This document shows positions 6,326 through 50,600 of a stretch of DNA of 64,000 bases, piece after piece. Position 1 is the stretch's first letter. Each line of letters begins with the position of its first letter. A program made the translations under genes and the position numbers. The DNA comes from Panopea generosa (Eukaryota > Mollusca > Bivalvia > Adapedonta > Hiatellidae), in assembly GCA_029582155.1 (NCBI GenBank), contig CM055895.1, positions 60,861,078 to 60,925,077 of the forward strand. The letters are read 5' to 3'. A model generated the notes under the pieces. That model searched no databases. It saw only the letters and a program-made list of their open reading frames with translations, and was not told the DNA's origin.

Positions 6326-6435
6326 TGTACTTCCTGATGAAGATATATGTGACATTAGTGTGAATGGTGATGCTGCTGCTGATGTTGTAGCTAGTGATTT
6401 TGCTGCTGCTGTTGATGATGAGTGTGATATTGTGA

Positions 6436-7371
6436 ATGGTGGTGGTTACTGCTGCTAATGATGCTGCAGTGTTTGGTGTTAGTGTGAACAGTGATGTTGC
6501 TGCTGATGATGATGTGTGTGACGTTAGTGTGAATGGTGATGTTGCTGCTGCTACTACTGCTGATATGTGTGATATTAGTGTGAATGGCGATGTTGCTGCT
6601 GCTACTACTGCTGATATGTGTGATGTTAGTGTGAAAGGATATGTTGCTTCTGTTACTACTGCTGATATGTGTGATATTAGTGTGAATGGTGATGTTGCTG
6701 CTGCTACTACTGCTGATATGTGTGATGTTAGTGTGAAAGGTGATGTTGCTGCTGCTCCTACTTCTGATATGTGTGATATTAGTGTGAAAGGTGATGTTGC
6801 TACTACTGAAGATGATGGTATGTGTGATATTAGTGTGAAAGGAGATGTTGCTGCTGCTACTACTGCTGATATGTGTGATGTTAGTGTGAAAGGTGATGTT
6901 GCTGCTGGTACTACTGCTGATATGTGTGATATTAGTGTAAAAGGTGATGTTGCTACTACTGAAGAAGATGGTATGTGCGATATTAGTGTGAAAGGAGATG
7001 TTGCTGCTGCTACTACTGCTGATATGTGTGATGTTAGTGTGAAAGGAGATGTTGCTGCTGCTACTACTGCTGATATGTGTGATGTTAGTGTGAATGGTGA
7101 TATTGCTGCTGCTACTACTGAAGATGATGGTATGTGTGATATAAGTGTGAAAGGTGATGTTGCTGCTGCTACTACTGCTGATAAATGTGATGTTAGTGTG
7201 AATGGTGATGTTGCTGCTGTTACTACTTCTGATATGTGCGATGTTAGTGTGAACGGTGATGTTGCTGCTGCTGATGATGATATGTGGGATGTTAGTGTGA
7301 ATGGTTATGTTGCTGCTGATGATGATGATGAGATGATGATATGTGTGATGTTAGTGTTAATGGTTATGTAG
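6436..7371 (+). repeat. 51-bp in-phase tandem repeat with 311-codon open frame
   Basis: The DNA unit is 51 bp (some variants differ), encoding about 17 residues of the type DVAAATTADMCDISVKG, so the frame stays open without selection being required. Variant units carry TTEDDGMCDISVKG. Each unit has one cysteine and alternates acidic and small residues. There is no signal peptide or known domain. Upstream repeat-like DNA at 5790-5916 and 6350-6430 is out of frame with it. It could be a low-complexity structural protein exon or simply a coding-length minisatellite; the latter is safer. Confidence 0.5.
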
Positions 7372-7589
7372 CTGCAGCTGTTGATGATGTGTGTGATGTT
7401 AGTGTCAGATTATTCAATAATATAAAGCATCCTTCTATTAAAATATAAAAAAAAGTTGAAGATTAATTAAAATTCAATCGTATGTTATGTATAGATACAC
7501 TATCGTCTACATTGGCACTCTTGTGTGTTGGTGCCTCTGTTACATTGTACAGCATAACAGAACTATATGGTACGGTGTTCCGTTAGGGC

Positions 7590-10988: not shown

Positions 10989-12230
10989 CCTGTAGTTACC
11001 AAAAGTTACCAAAGACATATAACAAGTAACCACAGTTACCAAAGGCATATAGTGGGTTACAAATGGACTTACTTGTGCAGAGGTGCACATGTTTGGCCAT
11101 ATATGAGAAATAGAGACATGTTTTTTTTTTCTCCAGAGTTTCTTAAGTAATTTTGTAGATTTGCTGCAGTAACTTAGAGTAACTTTCAGTTACCAAAGAC
11201 AAAGAAGGGTAACCAAGTAACCAGAAATAGAGACATGTTTTTTCAGATTTTCTTAATTGATTTTGTAGATATGATGCAGTAACCTGAAGTAACCTTCAGT
11301 TACCAAAGATTAAGAAGGGTAACCAAGTAACCAGAAATAGAGACATGATTCTTTTCAATATTTCTTATATTATGATTTTGTAGATTTGCTGTAGTAACCC
11401 TGAGTAACCTTCAGTTACCAAAGACAAAGAAGGGTAACCAAGTAACCAGAAATAGAGGCATTATTTTTTTTCAATATTTCTTATATTATGATTTTGTTGA
11501 TTTGCTGCAGTAACCTGGAGTAACCTTCAGTTACCAAAGACAATGAAGAGTAACCAAGTAACCAAAAATAGAGGCATGCTTTTTTTAATATTTCTTATAT
11601 TATGATTTTTGTAGATTTGCTACAGTAACCTTGAGTAACCTTCAGTTACCAAAGACAAAGAAGGGTAACCAAGTAACCAGAAATAGAGACATGTTTTTTT
11701 CTCTCCAGAGTTTCTTAAGTAATTTTGTAGATTTGCTGCAGTAACCTAGAGTAACCTTCAGTTACCAAAGACAAAGAAAGGTAACCAAGTAACCAGAAAT
11801 AGAAACATGTTTTTTTGCAATTCTCCTTATATAATGATTTTGTAGATTTGCTGCAGTAACCTGGATTAACCTGTAGTTACCAAAGACAAAGAAGGGTAAC
11901 CAAGTAACCAGAAATAGAGACATGTTTTTTTTCTTCAGATTTTCTTAAGTGGTTTCGTAAATTTGCTGCAGTAACCTTGAGTAACCTGTAGTTACCAAAG
12001 ACAAAGAAGGGTAACCAAGTAACCAGAATTAAAGATGTTTTTTTTCAATACTTCTAGTTTTTTTATATTGCAGAATTTCAGCACTAACCTAAACTATGAG
12101 TAGCATAAAGGTTTTTCTTGGTTACCAAAAACATATAACAAGTAACTGCAGTAACCTCACTTACCAAAAGCATATAGTGGGTTACAAATGGACTCACTTG
12201 TGCAGAGGTGCACATTTTGTGTCATATCGA
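10989..12230 (-). repeat. Right arm I: inverted ~115-bp minisatellite
   Basis: The same units as the left arm in reverse complement (GTAACCAAGTAACCAGAAAT, then GAGACATG). The order of spacer types mirrors the left arm, so the two arms are inverted copies and not independent arrays. A shoulder sequence with GTGCAGAGGTGCACAT occurs at the core junction and again at 12120-12216, just before the next left arm. Confidence 0.92.
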
Positions 12231-13681
12231 CTATTTCTGGTTACTTGGTTACCATTCTTTGTCTTTGGTAACTGAAGGTCACTCCAGGTTACCGTAGCAA
12301 ACCTACAAAAATCATAATAAAAGAAATATTGAAATGAAAAAAAGTATGTCTCTATTTCTGGTTACTTGGTTACTCTTCTTTGTCTTTGGTAACTGAAAGT
12401 TACCCCAGGTTACTGCAGCAAATCTACAAAATCAATTAAGAGAATCTGAGAGAAAAACAACACGTCTCTATTTCTGGTTACTTGGTTACCATTCTTTGTC
12501 TTCGGTAACTGAAGGTTACTTCAGGTTACTGCAGCAAATCAACAAAATCATAATATAAGAAATATTAAAAAAAATCATGTCTATGTTTCTGGTTACTTGG
12601 TTACCCTTCTTTGTCTTTGGTTACTTCAGGTTACTTCAGGTTACTGCAGCAAATCTACAAAATCAAATAAAAAAATCTGAAAATAAAATGTCTCTATTTC
12701 TGGTTACTTGGTTACCCTTCTTTGTCTTTGGTAACTGAAGGTTACTCAAGGTTTCTGCAGCAAATCTACAAAATCATAATATAAGAAATATTGAAAAAAA
12801 ATCATGCCTCTATTTCTGGTTACTTGGTTACCATTCTGTGTCTTTGGTAACTGAAGGTTACTTCAGGTTACTGCATCAAATCTACAAAATCAATTTAGAA
12901 AATCTGAAAAAATCATGTCTCTATTTCTGGTTACTTGGTTACCCTTCTTTCTCTTTGGTAACTACAGATTACCTCAGGTTACTGCATCAAATCTACAAAA
13001 TCAATTAAGAAAATCTGAAAAAACATTTCTCTATTTCTGGTTACTTGGTCACCCTTCTTTGTCTTTGGTAACTGAAGGTTACCCCAGGTTACTGCAGCAA
13101 ATCTACAAAATCATAATATAAGAAATATTGGGAAAAAAATGTCTCTATTTCTGGTTAATTGGTTACCCTTCTTTGTCTTTGGTAACTGAAGGTTACTCCA
13201 GGTTAATGCAGCAAATCTACAAAATGATTATGTGAGGAATATTGAAAATAAAATCATGTCTCTATTTCTGGTTACTTGGTTACCCTTCTTTGTCTTTGGT
13301 AACTGAAGGTTACTCTTGGTTACTGCAGCAAATCTACAAAATCATTATATATGGAGAATTGGAAAAAACATGTCTCTATTTCTGGTTACTTGGTTACCAT
13401 TCTTTCTCTTTGGTAACTGAAGATTACTTCAGGTTACTTCATCAAATCTACAAAATCAATTAAAAAAATCTGAAAATAACATGTGTCTATTTCTGGTTAC
13501 TTGGTTACCCTTCTTTGTCTTTGGTAACTGAAGGTTACTTCAGGTTACTGCATCAAATCTACAAAATCATAATACAAGAAATATTTAAAAAAATCATGTC
13601 TCTATTTCTGGTTACTTGGTTACCCTTCTTTGTCTTTGGTAACTTAAGGTTATTCCATGTTACTGCATCAAATCTACAAAA
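12231..13681 (+). repeat. Left arm II: ~115-bp minisatellite
   Basis: About 12-13 direct-orientation units, a shortened version of left arm I. The last units before the core (with TTATTCCATGTTACTGCATC) match those at 2940-2970. Open frames here are minisatellite shadows. Confidence 0.93.
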
Positions 13682-16528
13682 CCATACAAAATAATAATAA
13701 TACCCACCTATGTGTACATTGATGGCAACTCCAATATATGAGTTATTTGCACAATGTTTTTTGGCGTTGTTGTGGTGGCGCAGTCGATAGAGACGTCGGC
13801 ATAAATGTGTTAGTGGCTGACGCCACAGGGTCTGTGGGTTCGAATCCCATAAGTGATAGAAAATATTTCAGAAATTATCCGTGGTCAGGTGAATAAGTCA
13901 TATGTCAATTCTCTCCATTGAGTCATATAAAGTAGGAATGATTGTCCGTGGTCAGGTGAATAAGACATATATGTTTTTCATCCTATTTTCAGACACCTTT
14001 TTATTTTGCCATGCAGTTGTGAAAGTTTCAGACCTTTTTAAGACATAATTGGTCAAGTTATTATAAAACTTAGTCAGTATGAGTGTGAATTTTACTTTTT
14101 CACAAGAAATACGAGCATTTTAACTGATACTATGTGTCACTAAAACTTAGTTTATTTCAGAACTTGTGACAAGTGTAGATAAGTATTACATAAAATGTTA
14201 CTGTTGAATCTTTAAAATAAAAAAAAGGTCCTCTTAAGAACTCACACCACTATTATCTCCCTTAAGTACTCCGGATCTACAGAATAATGAAGGAGGTAGA
14301 AATAAAAACTTTAGTTCTCTTTTTCTTCTTTTTGTCAGGCCTTGTACTGCAGTAATTTAAATTATCCTACCACGTATTTTAGAAATCACCACTGAAAATT
14401 TGATACTGATATCAGATTTCAGGGCAATTCTGTGTCATTTCACAATTGTTGGTTCAAGCCGCGTTGTTGGCAAATAGTTGATATATAATTACTCTGGGAT
14501 CAAAGTGGGGCGGTAGTCTAATGGATAGAGTGTTAGGAAACAAATGGTGAGCATGATTATGGAAATGTATGGGTTCTTTATAAAAATTGTGAATTGCATA
14601 TCCCTGTGTCTTGTGGTTTCACCCTGGGTGGGGCCTTATAAAAATTAGTGTATCTGTAAACAATTCACATTTTTTTTACTTCTTTTCAAAAACCGTAAGC
14701 TCAATCGTTATGAAATTGTTGTATGCAGATTTGGTACCACAAGGGTGAACCAGAATTTTGAATTGCATGGTTTATTTACCTTACTATCCTTCGTTATTGT
14801 ATGTTATTCAACAACAGAGTTTCATTTTACTGTTAAAATAGTGTATTTGTGAAAAGAATTGCCTAACATCAGAAAATTTACATTTGTGACAAAAAAAAAC
14901 ATAAGTCCCACTGACCCCATTTTGTCAAAAGGATATAAAATTTGAACATGCTGATAATATATAATTATTGAAAAGGGATTTCCTAACATGGCGAGTTGAT
15001 ACAAATATAGATATCCTGCTGAAATTGCAACATTTGGGATGTAATACATGAGTCAATTTATCCATTTTAAAATTCAGGCATTTATATAAATAAGGTTTTT
15101 CACTGATAAACATATCCTATTAAATTGGATGTTTAGTATCACTTTGAAAATAACATAGTTTCAAAAAGGGGACTGACATTACATAATTTTTAATTGCAAG
15201 AAACCCTCTGGGGGACACTCAAAATCACCATGGTTAAAATCCCTATAACTGACTGAAAATGTTAAAATAAGTATTTAGCCAAATAATGATGTAATGTTAT
15301 CCAACATCCTGTCAAAAACTTTGGGGTATTCTATGCAAATTAGAGTACAGTATGAGGGTAAATGTTTTACCACATGGTGTGAATGTACTAAGTATTGGGG
15401 GAGATTGGAGAACTCAGCAGGTGGTCAGTAGCATACACATTACTTAATGTCTCTGTTATTTGTAATGATGCCAAAATGGGATAATTGTAGGTAAAATGTA
15501 CACAATATAATTAACAAATTATTTTGTAAAAAAGATACCATCCAACCATGCATTTAAGTTAACATTAAAAGGGCATATGAAATCATTTCATAATTTATTT
15601 ACTTCGTGACAGTGTATACTTTGAAAACATTTCACGGATGTGCAGGGTGTTCTGAGTTTAAAATCATTGAAGTTGTCTAATTAAGCTAGAAGGGTATTTT
15701 AATATTTTACAAATTCAATCATGCTTGCTTTTATAATGAATGGATGGATTGTACTATGTCAGACACATGACATTTGGGTTGCAGGTTTGATCCCTGGGAC
15801 ATGACCAATGCAACCTTTATCCCTCTTTCTGGGTGATGCTTCATAATCATGATCTTGTTGCTGAGATCAAGGACTTGTATAGATATACTTCTGCGCTGTT
15901 ATGTATTCTTGTTTCTCTTTTCTCTGTATTTCATACATTTTTTTCTTTTATTCAAAAAAGTTTCAGAAAATTAAGTTACCACTGTGCCCGAGAATCATAT
16001 CATCACTTTTAGACAACAACAATGTCACTGTGTTTGGGAAGTGTTTTTAATAGTGTCTGAGAACTACAATCACTATGATATATTATATACTCACAGTTTC
16101 TGAGATGCCTGAGAATGATAATATCACTGCCTGTACTGTTTAAACTAAAACGTTTCCTACATACCTTTGATGATGTTTTTTTGTCTGTACATGTTACATT
16201 CCTTCAGAAGAGTCTAATTATATAAGAACTTCAATTCCAAGTCTGGAATTACATTAAAAGTTTACTTTAAAACTCCCAGATATATTCTAAAACATGTTTA
16301 TAAACGATTAAAAGTCGTTTTTATGTGATTCGTAAAAAAATGTGTGTTTTGTAGGCCCTTTCTGTGTAGAAAGTCCTTTCTGCGGAAAGGGATCCTTTCA
16401 GGTGTTTAGACACACCGCATTGCTGCTGTTAGTGTGAATGGTGATGTTTAATACTGCTGCTGATGATAATGTATGAGCTGTTAGTGTGTGGAGGTGTTTA
16501 CTGCTGCTGCTGATGATGATGGGTGACG

Positions 16529-16937
16529 GTGGTTTCGTCAACATAGCAGTTCGTCTACCTTAATTTTGTGTTGAAAACAAGTAGTGATTTCGTAAACCTT
16601 AATTTAGTATAGTGTTATGTGGCATGACAATTAACCAGGTGTGAAACCCTAATATACAGCAAGAAGACTGACAGTTGTGGATAGGTGACAACCAGTTACG
16701 GTCTGTTGAACGAACTGGGGGTATACTTTTATGTAGTCAAGTATGTTATTGAAAAGTAACAAGTAATGAAATATATAGTATTATATTTTCTTATAAAAAA
16801 AATAATACAATTTTAGGCCAAACACTTATAAAGTAAAAATATACATTTTAATAACATTATATAAAAAAGGTAGACGAAACCACTTATGGCTCCCTATATA
16901 AATTAAGGTAGACGAACAGGTAGGTTGACGAAACCAC
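16529..16937. mobile_element. TIR element (MITE-like), copy 2
   Basis: Same element, same length and same position within core II as the copy at 5917, so it predates the unit duplication. Confidence 0.7.
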
Positions 16938-17047
16938 TGTACTTCCTGATGAAGATATATGTGACATTAGTGTGAATGGTGATGCTGCTGCTGATGTTGT
17001 AGCTAGTGATTTTGCTGCTGCTGTTGATGATGAGTGTGATATTGTGA

Positions 17048-18157
17048 ATGGTGGTGGTTACTGCTGCTAATGATGCTGCAGTGTTTGGTGTTAGTGTGAA
17101 CAGTGATGTTGCTGCTGATGATGATGTGTGTGATGTTAGTGTGAATGGTGATGTTGCTGCTGCTACTACTGCTGATATGTGTGATATTAGTGTGAAAGGA
17201 TATGTTGCTGCTGCTACTACTGCTGATATGTGTGATATTAGTGTGAATGGTGATGCTGCTGCTGCTACTACTGCTGATATGTGTGATATTAGTGTGAAAG
17301 GATATGTTGCTGCTGCTACTACTGCTGATATGTGTGATATTAGTGTGAATGGTGATGTTGCTGCTGCTACTACTGCTGATATGTGTGATGTTAGTGTGAA
17401 AGGTGATGTTGCTGCTGCTACTACTTCTGATATGTGTGATATTAGTGTGAAAGGTGATGTTGCTACTACTGAAGATGATGGTATGTGTGATATTAGTGTG
17501 AAAGGAGATGTTGCTGCTGTTACTACTGCTGATATGTGTGATGTTAGTGTGAAAGGTGATGTTGCTGCTGGTACTACTGCTGATATGTGTGATATTAGTG
17601 TAAAAGGTGATGTTGCTACTACTGAAGATGATGGTATGTGCGATATTAGTGTGAAAGGAGATGTTGCTGCTGCTACTACTGCTGATATGAGTGATGTTAG
17701 TGTGAAAGGAGATGCTGCTGCTGCTACTACTGCTGATATGTGTGATGTTAGTGTGAAAGGTGATGTTGCTGTTGCTACTACTGAAGATGACGGTATGTGC
17801 GATATTAGTGTGAAAGGAGATGTTGCTGCTGCTACTACTGCCGATATGAGTGATGTTAGTGTGAAAGGTGATATTGCTGCTGCTGCTACTGCTGATAAAT
17901 GTGATGTTAGTGTGAATGGTGATGTTGCTGCTGTTACTACTTCTGATATGTGCGATGTTAGTGTGAACGGTGATGTTGCTGCTGCTGCTGATGGTGATAT
18001 GTGTGATGTAAGTGTGAATGGTTATGTTGCTGCTGCTGATGATGATGATATGTGTGATGTTAGTGTTAATGGTTATGTAGCTGCAGCTGTTGATGATGTG
18101 TGTGATGTTAGTGTCAGATTATTCAATAATATAAAGCATCCTTCTATTAAAATATAA
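17048..18157 (+). repeat. 51-bp in-phase tandem repeat with 369-codon open frame
   Basis: Duplicate of the array at 6436 with extra units. The frame is again uninterrupted and ends QIIQ-like after the last unit (VRLFNNIKHPSIKI). Differences from copy 1 include many unit-level changes such as C to S in some DMCD motifs. Open frames in both copies are compatible with coding, but a 51-bp unit lacking stops would give the same result. Confidence 0.5.
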
Positions 18158-18821: not shown

Positions 18822-19484
18822 CCTGTAGTTACCAAAAGTTACCAAAGACATATAACAAGTAACCACAGTTTCCAAAGGCATATAGTGGGTTACAAATGGA
18901 CTTACTTGTGCAGAGGTGCACATTTTGGGCCATATATGAGAAATAGAGACATGTTTTTTTTTCTCCAGAGTTTCTGAAGTAATTTTGTAGATTTGCTGCA
19001 GTAACCTAGAGTAACTTTCAGTTACCAAAGACAAAGAAGGGTAACCAAGTAACCAGAAATAGAGACATGTTTTTTCAGATTTTCTTAATTGATTTTGTAG
19101 ATATGATGCAGTAACCTGAAGTAACCTTCAGTTACCAGAGATTAAGAAGGGTAACCAAGTAACCAGAAATAGAGACACGATTCTTTTCAATATTTCTTAT
19201 ATTATGATTTTGTAGATTTGCTGTAGTAACTTTGAGTAACCTTCAGTTACCAAAGACAAAGAAGGGTAACCAAGTAACCAGAAATAGAGGCAATATTTTT
19301 TTTGATATTTCTTATATTATGATTTTGTTGATTTGCTGCAGAAACCTGGAGTAACCTTCAGTTACCAAAGACAATGAAGAGTAACCAAGTAACCAGAAAT
19401 AGAGGCATGCTTTTTTCAATATTTCTTATATTATGATTTTTGTAGATTTGCTACAGTAACCTTGAGTAACCTTCAGTTATCAAA
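18822..19484 (-). repeat. Right arm II: inverted minisatellite
   Basis: Five to six inverted units in the same order as right arm I. It is joined within a unit, at about 19484, directly to direct-orientation units of the next left arm. The arm-arm junction looks like recombination inside the array. Confidence 0.9.
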
Positions 19485-20060
19485 GACTCTATTAAGAGAA
19501 TCTGAGAGAAAAACAACACGTCTCTATTTCTGGTTACTTGGTTACCATTCTTTGTCTTTGGTAACTGAAGGTTACTTCAGGTTACTGCAGCAAATCAACA
19601 AAATCATAATATAAGAAATATTGAAAAAAAATCATGTCTATGTTTTTGGTTACTTGGTTACCCTTCTTTGTCTTTGGTTACTTCAGGTTACTTCAGGTTA
19701 CTGCAGCAAATCTACAAAACCATTATATATGAAGAATTGGAAAAAAACATGTCTATATTTCTGGTTACTTGGTTACCATTCTTTCTCTTTGGTAACTGAA
19801 GATTACTTCAGGTTACTTCATCAAATCTACAAAATCAATTAAAAAAATCTGAAAATAACATGTGTCTATTTCTGGTTACTTGGTTACCCTTCTTTGTCTT
19901 TGGTAACTGAAGGTTACTTCAGGTTACTGCATCAAATCTACAAAATCATAATACAAGTAATATTTAAAAAAATCAAGTCTCTTTTTCTGGTTACTTGGCT
20001 ACCCTTCTTTGTCTTTGGTAACTTAAGGTTATTCCATGTTACTGCATCAAATCTACAAAA
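19485..20060 (+). repeat. Left arm III: ~115-bp minisatellite
   Basis: About five direct units, the shortest left arm in the window, ending in the same TTATTCCATGTTACTGCATC unit as the other two. Confidence 0.92.
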
Positions 20061-23000
20061 CCATACAAAATAATAATAATACCCACCTATGTGTACATTG
20101 ATGGCAACTCCAATATATGAGTTATTTGCACAATGTTTTTTGGCGTTGTTGTGGTGGCGCAGTCGATAGAGACGTCGGCATAAATGTGTTAGTGGCTGAC
20201 GCCACAGGGTCTGTGGGTTCGAATCCCATAAGTGTTAGAAAATATTTCAGAAATTATCCGTGGTCAGGTGAATAAGTCATATGTCAATTCTCTCCATTGA
20301 GTCATATAAAGTAGGAATGATTGTCCGTTGTCAGGTGAATAAGACATATATGTTTTTCATCCTATTTTCAGACACCTTTTTATTTTGCCATGCAGTTGTG
20401 AAAGTTTCAGACCTTTTTTAGACATAATTGGTCAAGTTATTATAAAACTTAGTCAGTATGAGTGTGAATTTTACTTTTTCACAAGAAATACGAGCATTTT
20501 AACTGATACTATGTGTCACTAAAACTTAGTTTATTTCAGAACTTGTGACAAGTGTAGATAAGTATTACATAAAATGTTACTGTTGAATCTTTAAGATAAA
20601 AAAAAGGTCCTCTTAAGAACTCACACCACTATTATCTCCCTCAAGTACACCGGATCTACAGAATAATGAAGGAGGTAGAAATAAAAACTTTAGTTCTCTT
20701 TTTCTTCTTTTTGTCAGGCCTTGTACTGCAGTAATTTAAATTATCCTACCACGTATTTTAGAAATCACCACTGAAAATTTGATGCATATATCAGATTTCA
20801 GGGCAATTCTGTGTCATTTCACAATTGTTGGTTCAAGCCGCGTTGTTGGCAAATAGTTGATATATAATTACTCTGGGATCAAAGTGGGGCGGTAGTCTAA
20901 TGGATAGAGTGTTAGGAAACAAATGGTGAGCATGATTATGGAAATGTATGGGTTCTTTATAAAAATTGTGAATTGCATATCCCTGTGTCTTGTGGTTTCA
21001 CCCTGGGTGGGGCCTTATAAAAATTAGTGTATCTGTAAACAATTCACATTTTTTACTTCTTTTCAAAAACCGTAAGCTCAATCGTTATGAAATTGTTGTA
21101 TGCAGCTTTGGTACCATAAGGGTGAACCAGAATTTTGAATTGCATGGTTTATTTACCTTACTATCCTTTGTTATTGTATGTTATTCAACAACAGAGTTTC
21201 ATTTTACTGTTAAAAAAGTGTATTTGTGAAAAGAATTGCCTAACATCAGAAAATTTAAATTTGTGACAAAAAAAAACCATAAGTCCCACTGACCCCATTT
21301 TGTCAAAAGGATATAAAATTTGAACATGCTGATAATATATAATTATTGAAAAGGGATTCCCTAACATGCCGAGTTTATACAAATATAGATATCCTGCTGA
21401 AAATTGCAACATTTGGGATGTAATACATGAGTCAATTTATCCATTTTAAAATTCAGGCATTTATATAAATAAGGTGTTTCACTGATAAACATATCCTATT
21501 AAATTGGATGTTTAGTATCCCTTTGAAAATAACATAGTTTCAAAAAGGGGACTGACATTACATGATTTTTAATTGCAAGTAACCCTCTGGGGGACACTCA
21601 AAATCATCATGGTTAAAATCCCTATAACTGACTGAAAATGTTAAAATAAGTATTTAGCCAAATAATGATGTAATGTTATCCAACATCCTGTCATAAACTT
21701 TGGGGTATTCTATGCAAATTAGAGTACAGTATGAGGGTTAATGTTTTACCACATGGTGTGAATGTACTAAGTATTGGGGGAGATTGGAGAACTCAGCAGG
21801 TGGTCAGTAGCATACACATTACTTATTTTATCTGTAGGCAGTGTATTATGTGACAATATCCGAAAAGGTGAGAAATTCATATTTATCCAACGGTCAAAGA
21901 ACTATGATTATTGGCAGTGACTTAATGTCTCTGTTATTTGTAATGATGCCAAAATGGGGTAATTGTAGGTAAAATGTACACAATATAATTAACAAATTAT
22001 TTTGTAAAAAAGATACCATCCAACCATGCATTTAAGTTAACATTTAAAGGGCATATGAAATTATTTCATAATTAATTTACTTCGTGACAGTGTATACTTT
22101 GAAAACATTTCACGGATGTGCAGGGTGTTCTGAGTTTAAAATCATTGAAGTTGTCTAATTAAGCTAGAAGGGTATTTTAATATTTTACAAATTCAATCAT
22201 GCTTGCTTTTATAATGAATGGATGGATTGTAATATGTCAGACACATGACATTTGGGTTGCAGGTTTGATCCCTGGGACATGACCAATGCAACCTTTATCC
22301 CTCTTTCTGGGTGATGCTTCATAATCATGATCTTGTTGCTGAGATCAAGGACTTGTATAGATATAATTCTCCGGTGTTATGTATTCTTGTTTCTCTTTTC
22401 TCTGTATTTCATACATTTTTTTCTTTTATTCAAAAAAGTTTCAGAAAATTAAGTTACCGCTGTGCCCGAGAATCATATCATCACTTTCAGACAACAACAA
22501 TGTCACTGTGTTTGGGAAGTGTTTTTAATAGTGTCTGAGAACTACAATCACTATGATATATTATATACTCACAGTTTCTGAGATGCCTGAGAATGATAAT
22601 ATCACTGCCTGTACTGTTTAAACTAAAACGTTTCCTACATACCTTTGATGATGTTTTTTTGTCTGTACATGTTACATTCCTTCAGAAGAGTCTAATTATA
22701 TAAGAACTTTAATTCCAAGTCTGGAATTACATTAAAAGTTTACTTTAAAACTCCCAGATATACTCTAAAACATGTTTATAAACGATTAAAAGTCATTTTT
22801 ATGTGATTCGTAAAAAATGTGTGTTTTGTAGGCCCTTTCTGTGTAGAAAAGTCCTTTCTGCGGAAAGGGATCCTTTCAGGTGTTTAGACACACCGCATTG
22901 CTGCTGTTAGTGTGAATGGTGATGTTTAATACTGCTGCTGATGATAATGTATGAGCTGTTAGTGTGTGGAGGTGTTTACTGCTGCTGCTGATGATGATGG

Positions 23001-23893
23001 GTGACGGTGGTTTCGTCAACATAGCAGTTCGTCTACCTTAATTTTGTGTTGAAAACAAGTAGTGATTTCGTCAACCTTAATTTAGTATAGTGTTATGTGG
23101 CATGCCAATTAACCAGGTGTGAAACCCTAATATACAGCAAGAAGACTGACAGTTGTGGATAGGTGACAACCAGCTACGGTCTGTTGAACGAACTGGGGGT
23201 ATAATTTTATGTAGTCAAGTATGTTATTGAAAAGTAACAAGTAATGAAATATATAGTATTATAGTTTCTTATAAAAAAAATAAAACAATTTTAGGCCAAA
23301 CACTTATATATTAATTTCATCGTCAACATAGCTGATTCAATCACATCTCATGCAATTGATAAATATATGATAATGTAGATACATTTTATTGACTTAAACT
23401 ATTACAGTTTTTCATCATAAGAAATATATGACAAAATAAATGCACAAACACACACATGTGACATATCTGAACAAAGTAAAAATATACAGTTTAATTACAT
23501 TATATAAAAAAGGTAGACGAAACCACTTATCGCTCCCTATATAAATTAAGGTAGACGAACAGGTAGGTTGACGAAACCACTGTACTTCCTGATTAAGATA
23601 TATGTGACATTAGTGTCAGTGGTGATGCTGCTGCTGATGTTGTAGCTAGTGATTTTGCTGCTGCTGTTGATGAAGAGTGTGATATTGTGAATGGTGGTGG
23701 TTACTGCTGCTAATGATGCTGCAGTGTTTGGTGTTAGTGTGAACAGTGATGTTGCTGCTGATAAGATTATGTAATAACCTCCTGTGCTTATGAGGATAGA
23801 ATACAGAAAGTTCTTGCTTTTTAAAGAAAACATCTTCATGTTTATTATACCAATGCTAAAACACAAACGGAAAACAACTTGTTTTCAAAATAA
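20061..23893 (+). repeat. Core of foldback unit III
   Basis: A third homologous core. Relative to core II it lacks about 1.57 kb covering the 51-bp repeat and following sequence; the junction near 23760 shares only AT. It carries a 165-bp insertion (23309-23473) inside its TIR element. The 99-bp segment missing from core II is present here. Confidence 0.9.
23007..23580. mobile_element. TIR element (MITE-like), copy 3, with 165-bp insertion
   Basis: Same element in core III, lengthened by the insertion at 23309-23473, which is not present in copies 1 and 2. The insert shows no obvious target duplication or inverted ends. Confidence 0.65.
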
Positions 23894-24975
23894 TCCTGTA
23901 GTTACCAAAAGTTACCAAAGACATATAACAAGTAACCATAGTTACCAAAGGCATATAGTGGGTTACAAATGGACTTACTTGTGCAGAGGTGCACATTTTG
24001 GGCCATATATGAGAAATAGAGACATGTTGTTTTTTTTCTCCAGAGTTTCTTAAGTAATTTTGTAGATTTGCTGCAGTAACCTAGAGTAACTTTCAGTTAC
24101 CAAAGACAAAGAAGGGTAACCAAGTAACCAGAAATAGAGACATGTTTTTTCAGATTTTCTTAATTGATTTTGTAGATATGATGCAGTAACCTGAAGTAAC
24201 CTTCAGTTACCAAAGATTAAGAAGGGTAACCAAGTAACCAGAAATAGAGACATGATTCTTTTCAATATTTCTTATATTATGATTTTGTAGATTTGCTGTA
24301 GTAACTTTGAGTAACCTTCAGTTACCAAAGACAAAGAAGGGTAACCAAGTAACCAGAAATAGAGGCATTATTTTTTTTCAATATTTCTTATATTATGATT
24401 TTGTTGATTTGCTGCAGTTAGCTGGAGTAACCTTCAGTTACCAAAGACAATGAAGAGTAACCAAGTAACGAGAAATAGAGACATGCTTTTTTCAATATTT
24501 CTTATATTATGATTTTTGTAGATTTGCTACAGTAACCTTGAGTAACCTTCAGTTACCAAAGACAAAGAAGGGTAACCAAGTAACCAGAAATAGAGACATG
24601 TTTTTTTTCTCCAGAGTTTCTTAAGTAATTTTGTAGATTTGCTGAGGTAACCTAGAGTAACTTTCAGTTACCAAAGACAAAGAAGGGTTACCAAGTAACC
24701 AGAAATAGAGACATGTTTTTTTCAGATTTTCTTAATTGATTTTGTAGATATGATGCAGTAACCTGAAGTAACCTTCAGTTACCAAAGATTAAGAAGGGTA
24801 ACCAAGTAACCAGAAATAGAGACACGATTCTTTTCAATATTTCTTATATTATGATTTTGTAGATTTGCTGCAGTAACCTTGAGTAACCTTCAGTTACCAA
24901 AGACAAAGAAGGGTAACCAAGTAACCAGAAATAGATGCATTATTTTTTTTCAATATTTCTTATATTATGATTTAA
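23894..24975 (-). repeat. Right arm III: inverted minisatellite
   Basis: Eight to nine inverted units beginning with the shared GTGCAGAGGTGCACAT shoulder. The array stops abruptly inside a unit at about 24975, where a different repeat family starts. Confidence 0.92.
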
Positions 24976-26887
24976 CAAATATGCGATATATGACCGTAAC
25001 ATACATAACAATAGGGCCAAGATGGCCCTATATCACTCACCTGACTGACCCTGAGTCGCCCAACTTCAGTAGATTATATAATACATGTACACTCAAAATT
25101 CCAGAAAACCGAGATGAGCGAGTAGTTAGAATTTTGATTTGATTTGAAGATCTAACAGATGCGTAGAAGAGTTCAAACTTGGTAGTGGTTCACCCATTAC
25201 TATATAAGCTTTAGTAAAAACTTAAAAAATCTTCTTGTCAGAAACCACTGGGCCAATTTTGATATAACTTCACGGAAATGTTCCTTGGGTGACCCTCTAC
25301 CAAGTTTGTTCAAGCCATCTTGATTCGTCAAAAAACATGGCCGCCATGGGGCGGGGCTAGTTTAATTAGTAAAAACTTAAAAAATCTTCTTGTAAGAAAC
25401 TACTGGCTCGATTTTAAAATAATTTCACAGAAACGTTCCTTGGGTGACCCTCTACCAAGTTTGTTCAAACCATAGTGATGCGTCAAAAACATGGCGGCCA
25501 GGGGGTGTAGTTAGTTAACTATATAAGCTATAGTAAAAACTATTAGTAAAAAAATCCAGAAAACACTGGGCCAATGTTGATATAACTTCACAGAAATGTT
25601 CCTTGGGTGACACTCTACCAAGTTTGTTCAAGCAATATTCATTGGTAAAAAACATGGCCGCCATGGGGCGGCGCAAGTTTAATTAGTAAAAACTTAAAAA
25701 ATCTTCTTGTCAGAAACTACTGGCTCGATTTCAAAATAATTTTACAGAAATGTTCCTTGGATCACCCTCTACCAGGTTTGTTCAAGCCATCTTGATTTGT
25801 CGAAAAACATGGCCGCCAGGGGGCGGGATAAGTTCAATTAGTAAAAACTTAAACAATCTTTTTGTCAGAAACTACTGGCTCGATTTTAAAATAATTTCAC
25901 AGTAATGTTCCTTGGAGGACCCTTCACCAAGTTTGTTCAAACCGTAGTGATTTGTCAAAAAACATGGCGGTCAAGGGGTGGGGTTAGATTACTTTATAAA
26001 TTTTAGTAAAATTTAACAAATCTTCTTGTCAGAAACCACTGGGCCAATTTTGATATAACTTCACAGAAATTTTTCTTGGGTGACCCTCTACAAAGTTTGT
26101 TCAAGCCATCTTGATTCGTCAAAAACATGGCCGCAATGGGGCGGGGCAAGTTTAATTAGTAAAAACTTAAAGAATCTTCTTGTCAGAGACTACTGGCTCG
26201 ATTTTAGAATAATTTCACAGAAATGTTCCTTGGGTGACCCTTCACCAAGTTTGTTCAAACCGTAGTGATTCGTCAACAAAAATGGCGGCCAGGGGGTGTG
26301 GTTAGTTTACTATATAAGCTTTAGTAAAAATTTAACAAATCTTCTTGTCAGAAACCACTAGGCCAATTTTTATATAACTTCACAGAAATGTTCCTTTGGG
26401 TGACCCTCTACCAAGTTTGTTCAAGCCATCTTGATTCGTCAAAAGCATGGCCGCCAGGGGGCGGGGCAAGTTTAATTAGTAAAAACTTAAAAAAATTTCT
26501 TGTCAGAAACTACTGGCTCGATTTTAAAATATTTTTTCACAGAAAAGTTCCTTGGGTGATCCTCTACCAAGTTTGTTCAAGCCATCTTGATTCGTCGAAA
26601 AACATGGCCGCCAGGGAGCGGGGTAAGTTTAATTAGTAAAAACTTAAACAATCTTTTTGTCAGAAACTACTGGCTCGATTTTAAAATAACTTCACAGAAA
26701 TGTTCCTTAGGTGACCCTCTACCAAATTTGTTCCAGCCATAGTGATTCGTCAAAAAACATTGCGGCCAGGGGGTGGGGTTAGTTTACTATATAAGCTATA
26801 GTAAAAACTTAAAAAATCTTCTTGTCAGAAACCACTAGGCCAATTTTGATATTACTTTACAGAAATGTTCCTTGGGTGACCCACTAC
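24976..26887 (+). repeat. ~160-bp satellite array with GGGCCAAGATGGCCCT leader
   Basis: After a leader with the palindrome-like AGGGCCAAGATGGCCCT, about ten to eleven units contain TTCTTGTCAGAAAC, TTCCTTGGGTGACCCTCTAC, AAGTTTGTTCAA and CATGGCCGCCA or CATGGCGGCCA. Two unit types (TTTAATTAGT end and TATATAAGC end) recur, suggesting dimers. The short open frames are shadows. Confidence 0.9.
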
Positions 26888-27055
26888 TAAGTTTGTAGAC
26901 GTCGAAACCTCTGACCAAGCATGTCCCACTCATGCTCAATGGAAGCCAAATCTGGTATCACCGCTGGCCATGGGAGGACATTGATATCATTGGTGTGCAC
27001 GAACTGCTGTGTTATGCGCAGTGTGGGGACTTGCGTTGTCCTCGAAGATGAATTC
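26888..27055 (-). pseudogene. Tc1/mariner transposase C-terminal relic
   Basis: On the minus strand one frame reads EFIFEDNASPHTAHNTAVR. After a one-base shift it continues NDINVLPWPAVIPDL and IEHEWDMLGQRFRRL. These match the Tc1/mariner DDE blocks: the second catalytic D in DNA-x-PH, then WPA-x-PDL and the E in IEH-x-WD. About 165 bp survive next to the satellite. The frameshift and truncation make it inactive. Confidence 0.85.
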
Positions 27056-32522: not shown

Positions 32523-35500
32523 CTGTAAATATAAACAATTGCAAACAACATAAATATACATTAACAAAGAACAGAGTTGCGTGTAAGTTATTCCGCTCGT
32601 TGTTTCAAGTCAACGACACTTTCATCTAATGCCCACTTATCTCTCAATGCTGCGGTCATGAGTTCTTGCCCAAACTTTATGTATAAACATTTACTAGTTA
32701 CTTGTGGAAGGACGGTGATTCTACTTAGATTCATTCCGAGGTCTTCCTCCACTAATAAAACCAGATATGCTATGAACCTTGTGTTGAAGATGGTGTAAAA
32801 TTCCTTAAAAATAAATAAAATTACCATATTACAACAAGTCAATACTACATGTACGTATATGTTTTGTCTCTATCTTGGCATATTTGTTTTAATGTATTTG
32901 TTTATGTCAGGAAATTTTGCTAGCTGAAAATATTTTAAAAATGTGATTCATAAACTATTCACCACAATGAATATTTTTGCAGGGCTGAAGAAAATAACTG
33001 CCTTTTCAACATGAGGTAGAGGTCTCTCAATGGAGGTTTGATTAGAATAGAAATGTCTTGATTTTGGATGGGTAACAAAAACTTTGTATTCTTTTCTCAT
33101 AATTGTCATCATCGAGTTCTTTATTCCTCGCTTCGACAAATGAAACAATTCTTTTCTTAACAAGTCATTTATTTGTTTGCAAATGATTACATAACGTCAC
33201 TGTTTTCTCATCACCACCTTAATTGTCTGTAGGGGTCCGACATGGTGGAGTCGTCAGAGGCGAAGTCATCTTATAACCTCTCACCACTGAGGTCGTGGGA
33301 TGGAGTCCCGATCATTAAAAAAAATTCATGTTAAGAGGTTTGCCAGTTACTTGCTGAAAGACGGTGGTTCTAATCAAATTCATTCTGAGGTCTTCCTCCA
33401 TCAAAACAAACTGATATGCCATTTGCATAACCATATGCATATAGCTAGTATTCAACTTCCGAACACAGCTGGAGTGTTTGTATTGACTTTCAAGTAGCTG
33501 ACATAATCGTATGAACGTAAGATATTTACCCCTTCATGAGTAACTCCAAACCTGAGTGGTTTTCTCAACTTGTCTGGCAAAAATGGGAATAGTGTATCAA
33601 ATAACGGACATATAAGCTTGGCGTCAATAGCACTAGGATCTTGGCGACCTGGAACAAAATGGAAAACGGACATGATTTATTTCAATGGATGTGTCAATCA
33701 CTTTTTTATGTTGGAAAATCCACGATTCAAGTTTTACTATAAAACCAAATCATTAGAATTAAAAAATGGGAGAACTTGCATGGTCATCGGAGCTCTTGCT
33801 TTTTATTGTGAAAATAAATTGGTTAATGTATTTTGCTGAGCTCATGTCATTAACCATACATAAATGGAACGTAATGTGTTTGTTTACTGTCATAAACAGG
33901 AGCCGGTTGGTCAAGTGGGATAACTCTATTTTGATTTAAAGTAAAATTATGATCTCTTAAAACTTCAATTTGATGAAAGTGTTTTATCAAGCTCAAACCT
34001 CAACAACTGCCATACATCAACGAAACTGTGCTTGTGTATTCACAAGGGGGATAAGCGGGATGACTTCATGTTGTTTTAGGCAGAATTATACCCCATTGAT
34101 GTGTCATACTTGGCTTAAGTTTTATAGCAATCTCATATCTATCTCGGTACTTATTAACAATACACAACATATACCTTACACAAAAAGAAAAGAAAAATGA
34201 GCTTAGCAGTGTCAGTGATAAAGCTATTGGCAGCATATCAGATCGTGAACTGAGGTAAAGCTATTGACAGTAATGTACATCTAACACTGAACCTAGCAGT
34301 GTCAGTGATTAACTATTGGCAGCATATCAGATCTTGAACTGAGATAAAGCTATTGACAATAATGTACATCTAACATTGAATCTAGCGGTACCCGTAAAAA
34401 AGCTTTTTGTAACACATCTGGTCGTGAACTGAGGTAACGCTATTGGCAGTAGTCTACACTTAACACCATACCTAGCGTTACCAGTAATACAACTCTATTG
34501 ACAGCACACCTGGTCTTGATCTGAAGTAATGCTATTGACAGTAATGTACACCGAATAATGTACCTAGCAGTGTCAGTAATAAAGCTATTGACAGCCCACC
34601 TGATCTTCGACTGAGGTAAAACTTTTGACAGTGATATACACCAAACAATGAATCTAGCAGTGTCAGTGATAAAGCTACAGTGTATAAGCAGCATATCAGA
34701 TCTTGAACTGAGGTTAAGCTATTGACGGCAATGTACACCTAGCTCTGAACCTAGTGGTACCAGTGATAAAGTTATTGACAGTAATGTACACCTAGCACTG
34801 AACCTAAAATTACATGTTTTTTATGAAAAATACTTTACGCTTACTACCGAAGCTAGATGTACCAATTATAACACTCTTGACATTAAATTACTCCTGAGAC
34901 ATAACCTAGATGTACCTGTTATGGAGCTATTTAATGAGACTGTATCACTGTACCATAGATACGAGACGAGCAGTACCAGTGATAAAGCTATTGACGGCAA
35001 GTTATTCCTTACATATCCTAAATGTACCTGGTATGGAGCTACTGAGTGAGACTAGTTTTACCTGTTATAAAGCTTACTGTCAACCCGACGATGACGACAA
35101 TGGCCAGCAATATAGCACTGTACCAAAGATACGAGATGAGCGGTACCAGTAATATAGTTATTGACGGCAAGTTACTCCTTACAGAATCTAGATGTACCTG
35201 GTATGGAGATACTGAATGAGACTAGTTTTACCTGTTATAAAGCTTACTGTCAACCCGACGATGACGACAATTGCCAGCGCTGTAGCACTGTACTATAGAT
35301 ACGAGATGAGCGGTACCAGTAATATAGCTATTGACGGCATGTAAATCCTAACAGAACCTAGATGTACCTGGTATGGAGTTACTGAATGAGACTAGTTTTA
35401 CCAGTTATAAAACTTACTGTCAACCCGACGATGACGACAATAGCCAGCGCTGTAGCACTGTACCAAAGATACGATCTGACCAGTACCAGTAATATAGCTA

Positions 35501-38500
35501 TTGGCGGCAAGTTACTCCTAACAGAACCTAGATGTACCTGATATGGAGCTACTGAATGAGACTAGTTTTACCTGTTATAAAGCTTACAGTCAACCCGACA
35601 ATGACGACAATTGCCAGCGCTGTAGCACTGTACTATAGATACGAGATGAGCGGTACCTGTCATATAGCTATTGACGGCAAGTTACTCCTTACAGAACCTA
35701 GATGTACCTGGTATGGAGCCACAGAATGAAACTAGTTTTACCAGTTATAAAGCTTACTATCAACCCGACGATGACGACAATAGCCAGCGCTGTAGCACTG
35801 TACTATAGATACGAGATGAGCGGTACCAGTAATATAGCTATTGACGGCAAGTTACTCCTTACAGAACCTAGATGTACCTGGTATGGAGCTACTGAATGAG
35901 ACTAGTTTTACCTGTTATAAAGCTTACTGTCAACCCGACGATGACGACAATGGCCTGCGCTGTACCGCTGTACTATAGATACGAGATGAGCGGTACCAGT
36001 AATATAGCTATTGACGGCAAGTTACTCCTAACAGAACCTAGATGAACCTGGTATGGAGCCACAGAATGAAACTAGTTTTACCAGTTATAAAGCTTACTAT
36101 CAACCCGACGATGACGACAATAGCCAGCGCTGTAGCACTGTACTATAGATACGAGATGAGCGGTACCAGTAATATAGCTATTGACGGCAAGTTACTCCTT
36201 ACAGAACCTAGATGTACCTGGTATGGAGCTACTGAATGAGACTAGTTTTACCTGTTATAAAGCTTACTGTCAACCCGACAATGACGACAATTGCCAGCGC
36301 TGTAGCACTGTACCATAGATACGAGATGAGCGGTACCTGTCATATAGCTATTGACGGCAAGTTACTCCTTACAGAACCTAGATGTACCTGGTATGGAGCC
36401 ACAGAATGAAACTAGTTTTACCAGTTATAAAGCTTACTATCAACCCGACGATGACGACAATAGCCAGCGCTGTAGCACTGTACTATAGATACGAGATGAG
36501 CGGTACCAGTAATATAGCTATTGACGGCAAGTTACTCCTTACAGAACCTAGATGTACCTGGTATGGAGCTACTGAATGAGACTAGTTTTACCTGTTATAA
36601 AGCTTACTGTCAACCCGACGATGACGACAATGGCCTGCGCTGTACCACTGTTCTTTAGATACGAGATGAGCGGTACCAGTAATATAGCTATTGACGGCAT
36701 GTTACTCCTAACAGAACCTAGGTGTACCTGGTATGGGGCTACTGAATGAGATTATTTTACCAGTTATAAAGCTTACTGTTAACCCGACGATGACGACAAT
36801 GGCTAGCGCTGTACCACTGTACTATAGATACGAGACGAGCGGAACCAGTAATATAACTATTGACGGCAAGTTACTCCTAACAGAACCTAGATGTACCTGG
36901 TATGGGGCTACTGAATGAGGCTAGTTTTACCTGTTATAAAGCTTACTGTCAACCCGACGATGACGACAATAGCCAGCGCTGTAGCACTGTACCATAGATA
37001 CGAGAGTGTGTACAGTTTGTCTATACCTTCTGGCGGACTGTAAATATAAATGAACGAATGATTATCGTATATCCATCCAATATCACGTAGTACTCAATAA
37101 ACATGTGCTTAGTGGCCATATACACTATTTGCGGTCCTTTGGTCCGGAGTGGTGCTAGGAGTTGTTATCTTTAACTACTGTGGTAGTTTGTTCGAGTCTA
37201 GCTCTTTCAAGAAAATTTGTTTGTTACTAGCGGAAGGACGGTGATTCTTATCAGATTCATTTTGAGGTATTCCTCGATCAAGAAAACTAGATGTCATATA
37301 CGTGTTGAAAAACGGAGTTTAATAATTAATAAATTAATAAACTGGATATCCCGACAGCATATTTTCCATTACGCACTATCCCTTAAAATAATGTAAAGCA
37401 AGCGCATATTCCTATTTATATATAATAACAGACTTTGTCCTTCACAAATAATGGAAACACGTTTTTGTCCGTTTGACGCTATTTGTCAGTTTTTCGTCAG
37501 TTTTTCGTCAGCTTTTCGTCAGCTTTTTGTCAGCTTTTTGTCAATAGAAAATCAAAATACATTTACTTTTGTCGGCAATAATTCTTCATTGTTCTACGCT
37601 TCTGTGGACAAAAAGCATCATGCGAAGTCTTCATATGTTTCCAAATTTACGTTTCCTATTTTTTCTGCAGACAAAAAGCATCAAGCGCCTGCATACACGT
37701 TAATAAACTTAATACTCCCACTGTTTTTTTAGTAACGATAGCAAAATATAAACTCAGTGTACTATTCACTAGCACCTTTTGGTTGCTGAAGCTGCCAAGA
37801 GTTCAGTCATATTTCTCCATGACGACGAATTGAATACCGATACAGGAGTATTTGTGAGATTCCAGTTACATCCCTCGACACTGATTGGCGCTTTCCACGC
37901 CACCGGCTTCGTGATGTAGGCCCCTGTACCGATCCACAACATCATCAACAGACTCGTTATTGTACCCGCATATGCACCCTGGCAATAACATATGAAATAT
38001 AGCCAATCATACAAAAGTTATATATAATATGAATATAATGTATAAATATTTAGACAAAAACAAACAGATCAGCAACAATCAATATATTTTATAGATTTGA
38101 CAACATGTCCATTCCAACTTAATACCGGTAGGGTGATATTTACAATGATTTTGTTTTGTTTACGCGGATACGGGGTCGGTTTCATAAAACTTCTCAAATT
38201 ACTTCTCACGTATCAAAAAACACTAAGATTTCCTGAGAGTGAATTATACATAACCACATATGTTTTTAAAGTATTTTCCATAGCAGGAATGCAGACGCTC
38301 ATAATATAAAGATGCACAATAACTGATACATGTTTGTTGACTAGTGTTGACTCAAAGTGAGCTATTGTAGTCGCCCTGTGTCCATCAGTTCACTTTTTTT
38401 GTGTGCACTTTAGTATCCGTACTTTTGATACCCTTGAAGCATAACAAATAGACTATTTGAATTTGTGTGAACATTAACCCCTGTAGTTTATATTTTGGTC

Positions 38501-47626: not shown

Positions 47627-50600
47627 CAATTTTGAAAAGAGCTACCCGATTTATTAGAATTGCTAAAAAATTTTACTCCATCATAAATATAAAGCTTTGA
47701 ACTGATTAATAGAAATTTCATCTGTTATATAAGACGGAAAAGAATTCCACAAAAAAGACCCTGAATAAGCAAACGAATTTCAAAACATTTCAGAATTAGG
47801 CTTAGGAGAATACAACTGTAGATTAGAGGATGACCGAAGTGTGCGTGTATGAACATTAGCAGCTGAAGTAAATAAATCTTTGAGATATGCAGGAGCCTGG
47901 TCATTAAATGGCTTATATATAAGTACTTCTATTTGAAATTTAACTCTTTTAGGAAACGTCATCCATTTAAGCTCTGTGAATAATTCAGCAGAAGGAGTAT
48001 CGTATTTTTTATCGACAATAAGTCTAGCAGCTCTCTTTTGAAACCTAACAATTTTATCTACAAGTGAAATATTACAATTTCACAAATTACACAACAGTAA
48101 TCTAAATGTGGTAAAATGTAAGCATTAAAACACAACGTACGCATTGGTACAGCAAGAACTAATTTGATGCGAGATAGAAGATAAAGTAATGAATTACATT
48201 TCTTTATAACATTGTCGACTGGGTATGCCAATACAGCTTATTATCAATCATAATTCCAAGTATTTTTTCATGTATACTTATATCAATAGCTTCATCTTTG
48301 TAATGAATAAGGTGAGAGTCATTACATATGCGGTTAACTTTGCTTTTGGAAGAGTTATACTTTATTGAGATCTGCTGTTAAGCATTTAACAACATTTGGA
48401 AAAGAATTATTTGAAACTGAGAGGTTAGTATCGTCTGCAAACATATCAACGGCAGTTTTTTTTTGCACAGATAATTGCAAATCATTTATGAATATTAAAG
48501 ATAAAAGGGGACCTAAGACGCAGCCCTGGGGTACACCAGCTTTTACTTTGCGGAACTCTGAAGTTATACCAGAAGCTTGAGTATAAGGAGTTCTATTTTC
48601 TAAATATGAGGAAAACCATTTTATCGTATTTTGCTTAACATGTACATGTTCAATTTTTTGAACAAGTACCTCATAGTCAACTTAGTCGAAAGCCTTGGAC
48701 AAATCAAGATATAATGAACCAACAATTTCATTTTTATCTAAAGCTGTAAGCCAGTCATCCAATATTTTTGTGAGAGCCGTTTGACAAGAATGGTGTGCTC
48801 TAAAACCAGATAGACAAAAATAGAACAGTTTATTTTCTTCCATGTATTTTCTAAGATGCATAATAACGTGACATTCTAGAATTAATGATATAATCAGAAG
48901 AATTGATATAGGCCTATAATTTGATTTATCATTTTTCGATCCCTTTTTGTGAATTGGCACAATTTTTTCTCGTTTAAATAATTTAGAAAATGTATAAGTG
49001 TCTAAACAACTATTAAATATCTTTGTTAGTTATAACCGAGGCTGACATTTTAAGAAACTTGGCACTCAGGCCGTCAGATCCTGTAGATTTTGCTATGTCC
49101 ATAAGTTGTAATTGATTTTCAACGAATGAAGGTGATATCGCTGGAACTTATCATAATTAATATTTATCAGATAGGGATTGTCATAGGATGTGATTGTTTG
49201 GTTTTCTCGATGTGACGTTTCATAAACCGTTGAAAAATAATTGTTAAAAACATTTGCTGTTTGAGTGGGACAAGTTATAGGATGTCCATCATCATCATCA
49301 TCATCTAAATAGTCAGTTTGAATTTGTGGTTTTAATCCAGATAAATCATGAAGGCTGTTCCACAATAGTTTTGGATTACGTTTGTTCGTGTTATTAGTTT
49401 CATTGCAATAGTTTTGTTTAGCTTGAAGTTTAAGAGTTTTAACCTTCTGACGCCAATATGTGTGACTATCAGTATCTTTTTCTTGTGAAAACTATTTTGT
49501 TGTTTTATTGAATCCAGAATTTCAATATTTATCCAATTCGTTTGATTTATTTTCTTTACTCGTTTCTTTCTTTTTGGGGCATTTCTATCTAATACGGTTT
49601 GGAACATTTCATTGAATAAGTCAAATGACTCGTCTAGGTTGTCGTATATGTCAATTATTGACCATGGTTGTTCTGAGAGATCATTTATAAACTGTGCTTC
49701 ATTGAATGAGTTCATAGACCTGTAATTTATTGTATATTACATGTAAAAGTATAGAATGTTGTAGAATAATAAATGATAAAAGCAAAATTAGCATATAATT
49801 ATGATTGTAGAGGGCGCAGGGCAACGCCGAAATATTACTTTACACTTCAACTCACCAGCGCAGTATTTACATTTCATGAACCATGTAAAGATATTAACCT
49901 CCAAGTAGTCATGATATTCTGAAACTTCAATCTCTAAGAAATAAATAATGTTTTAAAATAAAACTGGTGTTTTTTAAATACGAGTAAACACATCTTTAAA
50001 AATACATATTGATATTTCATTTTTGGATATTTTTTTTCATACCGATAACATCTGTTGAAAATAAATTATTCATTGCATCTTTTGTCATATGTGCCGAAAA
50101 ATATGAGAAACGCCGACGTTTAACAAGCGTTATGTGTCTTCCTAAATAAAATGTAAGTACTTGAAATAACTGACAACCAAACTTGTTTAAATATGCATAC
50201 GGTTCATAATTTAATTGGTATTATTATAGAGTTTGATTAATAATATGCAACATATTTTAAGCAAAAAGTAGTCCCTGTCGCGTATGATTATTTTGGCGGT
50301 GCAAAGGTTGATCACGACGACATACGCAGAGCTATGGCTGTTGCATAAATCCGGGTTAAAAATAATACACTCTTACTCTTACTTGTGATGTGCACCGTGC
50401 AGATATGTTAATTTCAAAAAATAATTTTAAATTAAATTTTATCAAAATTGCCGTATGGCGGTTCCTTTAAGCGGCAATCAAGTCATTGACTTATAGTGGC
50501 TTTATATTCCTATAACTTATAAAATATTTAGTCGAACAAACCACTGCTGTGTAGATGGTACATAGACTTCCGACGGATAACACAGCTCCCCAAAGTGACA

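Follow-up and report, generated by a model that had tools for sequence, protein, structure and literature searches.

In the 64,000-nucleotide stretch of Panopea generosa DNA analysed here (GCA_029582155.1, contig CM055895.1, positions 60,861,078 to 60,925,077; below, the window), intron 13 of a transporter gene contains a tandem array whose units repeat the end of exon 13 together with its splice donor. This raises the question whether the array acts on splicing of the gene or is a repeat that happened to start from an exon. An earlier note, made from the letters alone, had named both splice decoys and a minisatellite seeded by an exon. Our analysis points with good confidence to a passive minisatellite of the type known as "mirage". 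The coordinates refer to the window, and all searches of the genome used an assembly of 1.474 Gb in 39 contigs that represents one haplotype.

The exon 13 array and its host gene

The array lies at 34940..37005 on the minus strand. Tandem Repeats Finder (TRF) reported a period of 170, 12.2 copies and 92% matches, and the aligned copies gave the same structure. Each unit joins the 3' 76 nt of exon 13 to its donor and 94 bp of intron. Exon 13 itself (36931..37037, minus strand) supplies the first copy with its last 76 nt (36931..37006), followed by 11 full extra copies and a 27-bp fragment of a further one. The true acceptor and the first 31 nt of the exon are outside the repeat. Since the copies lack both, none of them is a whole exon preceded by an acceptor, as a duplicated exon would be. 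The earlier note had described about twelve such units and had placed the real exon with its acceptor at the right edge only; both descriptions hold. Its span of 34200..37037 includes the 170-bp array and also takes in a separate, older array of 90 bp at 34196-34781. When exon 13 with 30-nt flanks was compared with the window by BLAST, 12 non-self matches were obtained (E 1e-45 to 4e-7). No copy of any of the other 14 exons was found in the window at E<=0.01, thus chance is excluded as the source of the exon 13 copies.

The donor GTAAAA is intact in all 12 copies. One TGG codon of the exon part has changed in most of the extra copies, reading TAG in seven and AAG in one, so that an AG was gained in eight of the 11, in agreement with the potential acceptor that had been noticed in many units. 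The TAG form is found in u01 (36668..36836; 169 bp, donor CTG/GTAAAA), u03 (36328..36497), u05 (35988..36157), u06 (35818..35987), u07 (35648..35817), u08 (35478..35647) and u10 (35138..35307). Copy u02 (36498..36667, donor CAG/GTAAAA) carries AAG. The TGG is retained in u04 (36158..36327), u09 (35308..35477) and u11 (34968..35137). All were placed on the minus strand by alignment. The fragment at 34940..34966 on the same strand was detected as a 96% match of exon 13 in the BLAST comparison.

The gene model consists of 15 exons with AG/GT borders on the minus strand, which join into a single open frame of 641 amino acids. The joined protein carries the SSF domain (PF00474, 5e-45) and matches solved SLC5 transporters over long stretches, with SMVT at 4e-150, SMCT1 at 1.7e-142 and the sodium/iodide cotransporter at 1.9e-120. 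By its predicted product, the host gene is a sodium/solute symporter, SLC5A6/SLC5A8-like. Pfam searches of single exons gave a match in one of six only, and the family was settled by the joined protein. The exon numbering of the earlier note was confirmed by the model, which places exon 12 at 37776..37978, intron 13 (3282 bp) at 33649..36930 and exon 14 at 33530..33648, all on the minus strand. Exon 13 (107 nt) enters in phase 2 and leaves in phase 1, and its borders agree with the repeat alignment and the SMVT alignment. The exons of the gene range from 52 to 372 nt. The array and the older 90-bp array make up most of the length of intron 13.

Divergence among the extra copies was compared between the two parts of the unit. 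Pairwise values were 0.072-0.078 for the exon part and 0.062 for the intron part. Because the two are about equal, the exon part is not protected. Among u01-u10, identity was 94.5% at a lag of two units and 95.5% at a lag of four, versus 92.6-92.8% at lags of one, three and five. Copies u03 and u07 are identical, u06 is 98.2% identical to u02, and u11, at the edge, stands furthest from the rest, with identities of 85.9-91.8%. The copies thus look as if homogenisation had acted on two and on four units at a time, a typical turnover of minisatellites. Two further ideas were considered and set aside. Selective protection of the exon part, absent in divergence and borderline in a codon test described below, is not claimed. 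Regulation by RNA structure was rejected, as the RNA of two units folds no better than shuffled sequences (z -0.81).

Origin of the unit and search in the paralogs

The direction of copying was derived from the exon end. The end of the exon 13 peptide can be aligned with SMVT, and the GT donor is at the same place in all 14 intron-bearing paralogs of the genome. It follows that the exon end is the ancestral state and gave rise to the repeat.

The older array (34196..34781, minus strand) is decayed and consists of 6.4 copies of 90 bp, or about 2 x 45 bp, with 74% matches in TRF. Homology was detected with the intronic portion of the 170-bp unit (score 38, reached by none of 500 shuffles) and, more weakly, with the donor junction of exon 13. 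A profile of its sub-repeats matched this junction in register with an E value of 0.013. All matches of the profile of at least 5 bits in the 64 kb fall within 34190-37005 on the minus strand, and the match at the junction scored 11.6 bits, which was not reached in any of 40 Markov windows (maximum 11.3). In the reverse search, all ten matches of at least 4 bits outside the 12 copies fell into intron 13, again on the minus strand; with scores of at most 9.7 they do not exceed the Markov windows (10.7) and are not significant match by match. Pairwise alignment alone is weak. When the exon 13 end was aligned with the 90-bp array, 10 of 500 shuffles were as good if the donor and 30 nt of intron were included and 167 of 500 if only exon was used; the comparison with the intron part of the unit gave 36 of 500. 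Taken from these sequence comparisons, the exon 13 end is the likely founder of the older array as well, and a history in two steps is likely, from the boundary to a short repeat and from there to the 170-bp unit.

We searched the genome for related arrays. A 601-bp query from the array matched only this locus in the 1.474 Gb, in a search that scores the best candidates only. The exon 13 peptide gave 31 matches at E<=1, of which 12 are at this locus and 19 elsewhere. Of these 19, 14 contain the intron, and five seem to be without introns and lie within open frames of 622-688 aa. In these 14 paralogs (about 9.7 kb each), not one same-strand copy of the exon 13 end was observed at E<0.001, versus 13 matches in the window. 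In the best-scoring pair of paralogs (65% in exon 13), the introns measure about 1.02 kb and contain no repeat with a period of at least 20 according to TRF. Exon 14 was located in nine of the 14.

A survey of exon copies covered 28 of 50 loci, those belonging to these paralogs, with 32 exon matches after identical ones had been dropped. A same-strand copy of the coding part (E<1e-6) was present for one of the 32, exon 14 of a paralog on C19. Here, two further copies of the 3' end of the exon follow, spaced by about 160 and 153 bp (1995-2440 of L041, G000:C19:9932801-9942500), with identities of 75.8%, 73.3% and 67.5% among the three copies. The last 60 nt of the exon align to both copies with 35-38 nt matched and beat all 500 mononucleotide shuffles. 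Judged by its sequence, this is an older mirage of a different exon in a different gene copy. Together with the array in the window, it means that the process struck this gene family at least twice.

Other repeats were seen near the genes of this family. Three paralogs on C4 (L043, L049 and L050) carry an AT-rich minisatellite of 51 bp, about 60-160 nt past the same intron 13 donor and without an exon copy. A common cause of this repeat and the array in the window was considered as a possibility. The long SLC5-like open frames without introns, about 620-690 aa (G000:C8:56207632-56209401, C5:47185654-47187501 and others), are possibly retrocopies; the best is 49% identical to the protein of the window. 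In intron 4 of the host gene, pieces of an RVT_1 reverse transcriptase in two open frames (48355-49029) probably belong to a decayed retroelement.

Elsewhere in the window, a satellite-like unit of 115 bp occurs in six arrays and both orientations (198-2978, 11106-12055, 12231-13686, 18982-19487, 19508-20065 and 24057-24973). Two neighbouring pairs of these are oppositely oriented, as judged by eye from the consensus units. The same 50-bp dimer is found at 5813-7389, 16425-18114 and 22903-23687. At two of these places it is followed by one and the same 51-bp array, with 18.0 and 21.6 copies, a pattern that points to a larger block having been duplicated in tandem. An array of 155 bp with 10.6 copies is present at 25211-26896, for which TRF also gave longer periods of 318 and 473.

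Splice signals of the units and rival readings

Splice sites were scored with a matrix built from the 14 sites of the host gene itself, which is small and rough. By this measure, the donors of the extra copies score like real ones. All 11 are at or above 99.4% of the 1427 GTs in introns outside the array, and sites of the form [ACT][AT]GGTAAAA occur among the 14 introns only in intron 13 (11 sites) and intron 2 (one). Each unit can carry three AGs in a row, TA[TA]AG in eight of the 11 copies, TACAG in all 11 and CTACAG in ten, with u11 lacking the last. The TA[TA]AG sites, which include the AG gained at the TGG codon, are weak, with scores of 4.0-4.5 that rank in the 91st-93rd percentile among 1439 AGs of introns. 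TATAG, the highest at 4.45, exceeds only 3 of the 14 real acceptors, and the acceptor of exon 13 reaches 9.14.

The consequences for the reading frame were calculated. Use of TA[TA]AG would define a piece of 61 nt with a stop at residue 575, and a premature stop results in all eight copies that bear it. The earlier note had predicted a shifted frame and an early stop after the junction with exon 12; this was calculated for all 11 copies, of which eight have the AG, and was borne out, with the stop six codons past the junction codon in u01 and 14 codons past it in the others. A piece of 56 nt would start at TACAG and lead to a stop at 554-562 in all 11 copies. The third AG, CTACAG, was overlooked in the earlier note. 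It would yield an in-frame piece of 48 nt with phase 1 on both sides that adds 16 residues of the last membrane helix. A full-length frame of 657 aa results from each of the ten units with CTACAG, and a frame that includes all ten is open over 801 aa. Its score is 5.6 in five of the ten and 1.1-5.5 in the other five. Read-through past the donor of exon 13 would meet a stop after six codons.

We propose that a tandem duplication of the boundary between exon 13 and its intron came first, after which unequal exchange or replication slippage enlarged the array and homogenised its copies. The end of the exon would have been carried along passively because it was inside the first duplicated stretch. 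Growth probably took two steps, with the older array of ~45/90 bp at the far end formed first. A 170-bp unit would then have joined the exon end to the intron repeats and would later have been amplified in blocks of two and four. In splicing, the true exon 13 should be chosen and the whole array removed with intron 13, because this exon has the sole strong acceptor and its own donor is met first. The spare signals could occasionally be misused. A minisatellite seeded by the exon, one of the two suggestions of the earlier note, is well supported by the seeding at the boundary, the lack of extra constraint on the exon part, the homogenisation, the absence from 14 paralogs and the precedent of published mirages.

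Three observations weigh against a purely passive array. First, some acceptor-like sites of the units surpass TATAG: TACAG in u11 (6.5) and u09 (6.3) exceeds 4 of the 14 real acceptors. Second, the changes in the exon part were synonymous in the true frame in 10 of 19 cases where 6.3 were expected (p 0.036, uncorrected), and of the six frames tested the remaining five, two of the exon part and three of the intron part, show nothing. This excess could come from exchange with the real exon, from slight constraint or from chance among six frames, and we take it as weak evidence against pure neutrality. Third, the gain of an AG at the same codon in 8 of 11 copies looks pointed. Homogenisation could explain this; a weakly supported tree needs four Fitch changes.

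The best surviving rival, which we nevertheless regard as rather unlikely, is that the units serve as splice decoys or poison cassettes. As pseudo-exons from TATAG or TACAG to GTAAAA (61 or 56 nt) they would introduce premature stops or hold back intron 13, and their copy number would tune the output of the transporter. The scores and the confinement of the donors, the premature stops from both AGs, the TACAG sites of u09 and u11 and a length of 61 nt within the exon sizes of the host gene are in line with this, and retention of introns is promoted by decoy exons in human OGT and other genes (PMC12017769). In contrast, TATAG scores below 11 of the 14 real acceptors and far below that of exon 13, the exon part is not under constraint, and the published mirages are said to yield no aberrant mRNA (PMC3087553 and PMC3902484).

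It is quite improbable that the array is a gain of exon and intron caught half-way. Here, the donors would be ready-made, changes from TGG to TAG would add acceptors, and homogenisation would spread them, with the neighbouring AG allowing in-frame insertion of 1 to 10 helix copies. Lengthened or truncated transporters would then be made in some cells, in proportion to copy number. Use of the units as in-frame cassettes, with CTACAG making each a 48-nt exon and adding 16 residues, seems very improbable. The AG in ten copies, its score in the better half of them, the open frames and the weak synonymous excess agree with it. However, CTACAG comes behind TACAG and, where present, TATAG, the open frame follows from descent from an exon and is no evidence of use, and the protein would probably not tolerate a second copy of the membrane helix. 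Least probable is an assembly artefact that inflated or collapsed the copy number: the identity of u03 with u07 and the closeness of u02 to u06 are what a duplicated assembly block would give, but at 2-14% the differences between most pairs of copies are larger than a single block duplicated in error would show, units with TAG, TGG and TTTGG are interspersed, and the count at most would be touched.

Known mirages and meaning of the array

Tandem repeats across exon-intron boundaries have been described as "mirage" minisatellites in lancelets, namely in Adh3, the globins BflGb6 and BflGb9 and troponin C, and similar ones in PGBD5 (PMC3087553 and PMC3902484). For BflGb6, PMC3087553 reports units of 150-160 bp, AG/GT signals in many copies, identities of 81-100%, concerted evolution and diverged edges. 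The paper also states that Adh3 data and reverse transcription PCR (RT-PCR) of the globins suggest normal splicing, and proposes that mirages can give rise to new introns where an acceptor exists already or is created by mutation. The array of the window has the same traits. Its unit of similar size spans the boundary, the intronic copies bear AG/GT signals (GT in 11 of 11, the three AGs in 8, 11 and 10), and evolution is concerted with the edge copy u11 left out. In contrast to the lancelet cases, its host is a transporter of the SLC5 type in a genome of 1.47 Gb, point changes gave its copies an acceptor AG, and an older intron array lies beside it. A genome of this size and a G+C of about 35% suit a bivalve better than a lancelet. 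The array has 11 extra copies, versus six and three in the BflGb6 haplotypes.

Related systems were compared. In human segmental duplications, minisatellites at exon-intron boundaries can supply new splice sites and new introns (PMC2812944); these have units of 30 bp on average, about four copies and transcript support for the new introns, whereas our array is known from sequence. A minisatellite that yields multiple splice donors in the transcript of interferon-induced 6-16 (IFI6) is named in a title cited in PMC2572611. The array is like it, as far as that title goes, in having repeated donor sites beside an exon. The IFI6 units are reportedly short with donors in use; the unit of the window is long and its donors are predicted. 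Decoy exons in detained introns have been described for OGT, ARGLU1 and SF3B1, with experimental evidence of recognition (PMC12017769). Pseudo-exon-like pairs of splice sites inside an intron are shared with these decoys, and in the window they are known by site scores. We know of no detained-intron decoys that are tandem arrays copied from a neighbouring exon.

No boundary array in a transporter or a mollusc was found in titles and abstract openings of the open-access literature, searched partly in the top-ranked entries only. The array is thus a new mirage, and its fresh points are the newly gained acceptor AGs and the second case in a paralog. A mirage in an animal other than a lancelet would extend these repeats beyond lancelets. 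That introns or exons can be gained when splice-site regions are copied in tandem has long been proposed, and few cases have been caught at an early stage. With its donors, new acceptors in most copies, 14 paralogs without the array and one with an older mirage elsewhere, this locus offers a compact natural test of splicing-in.

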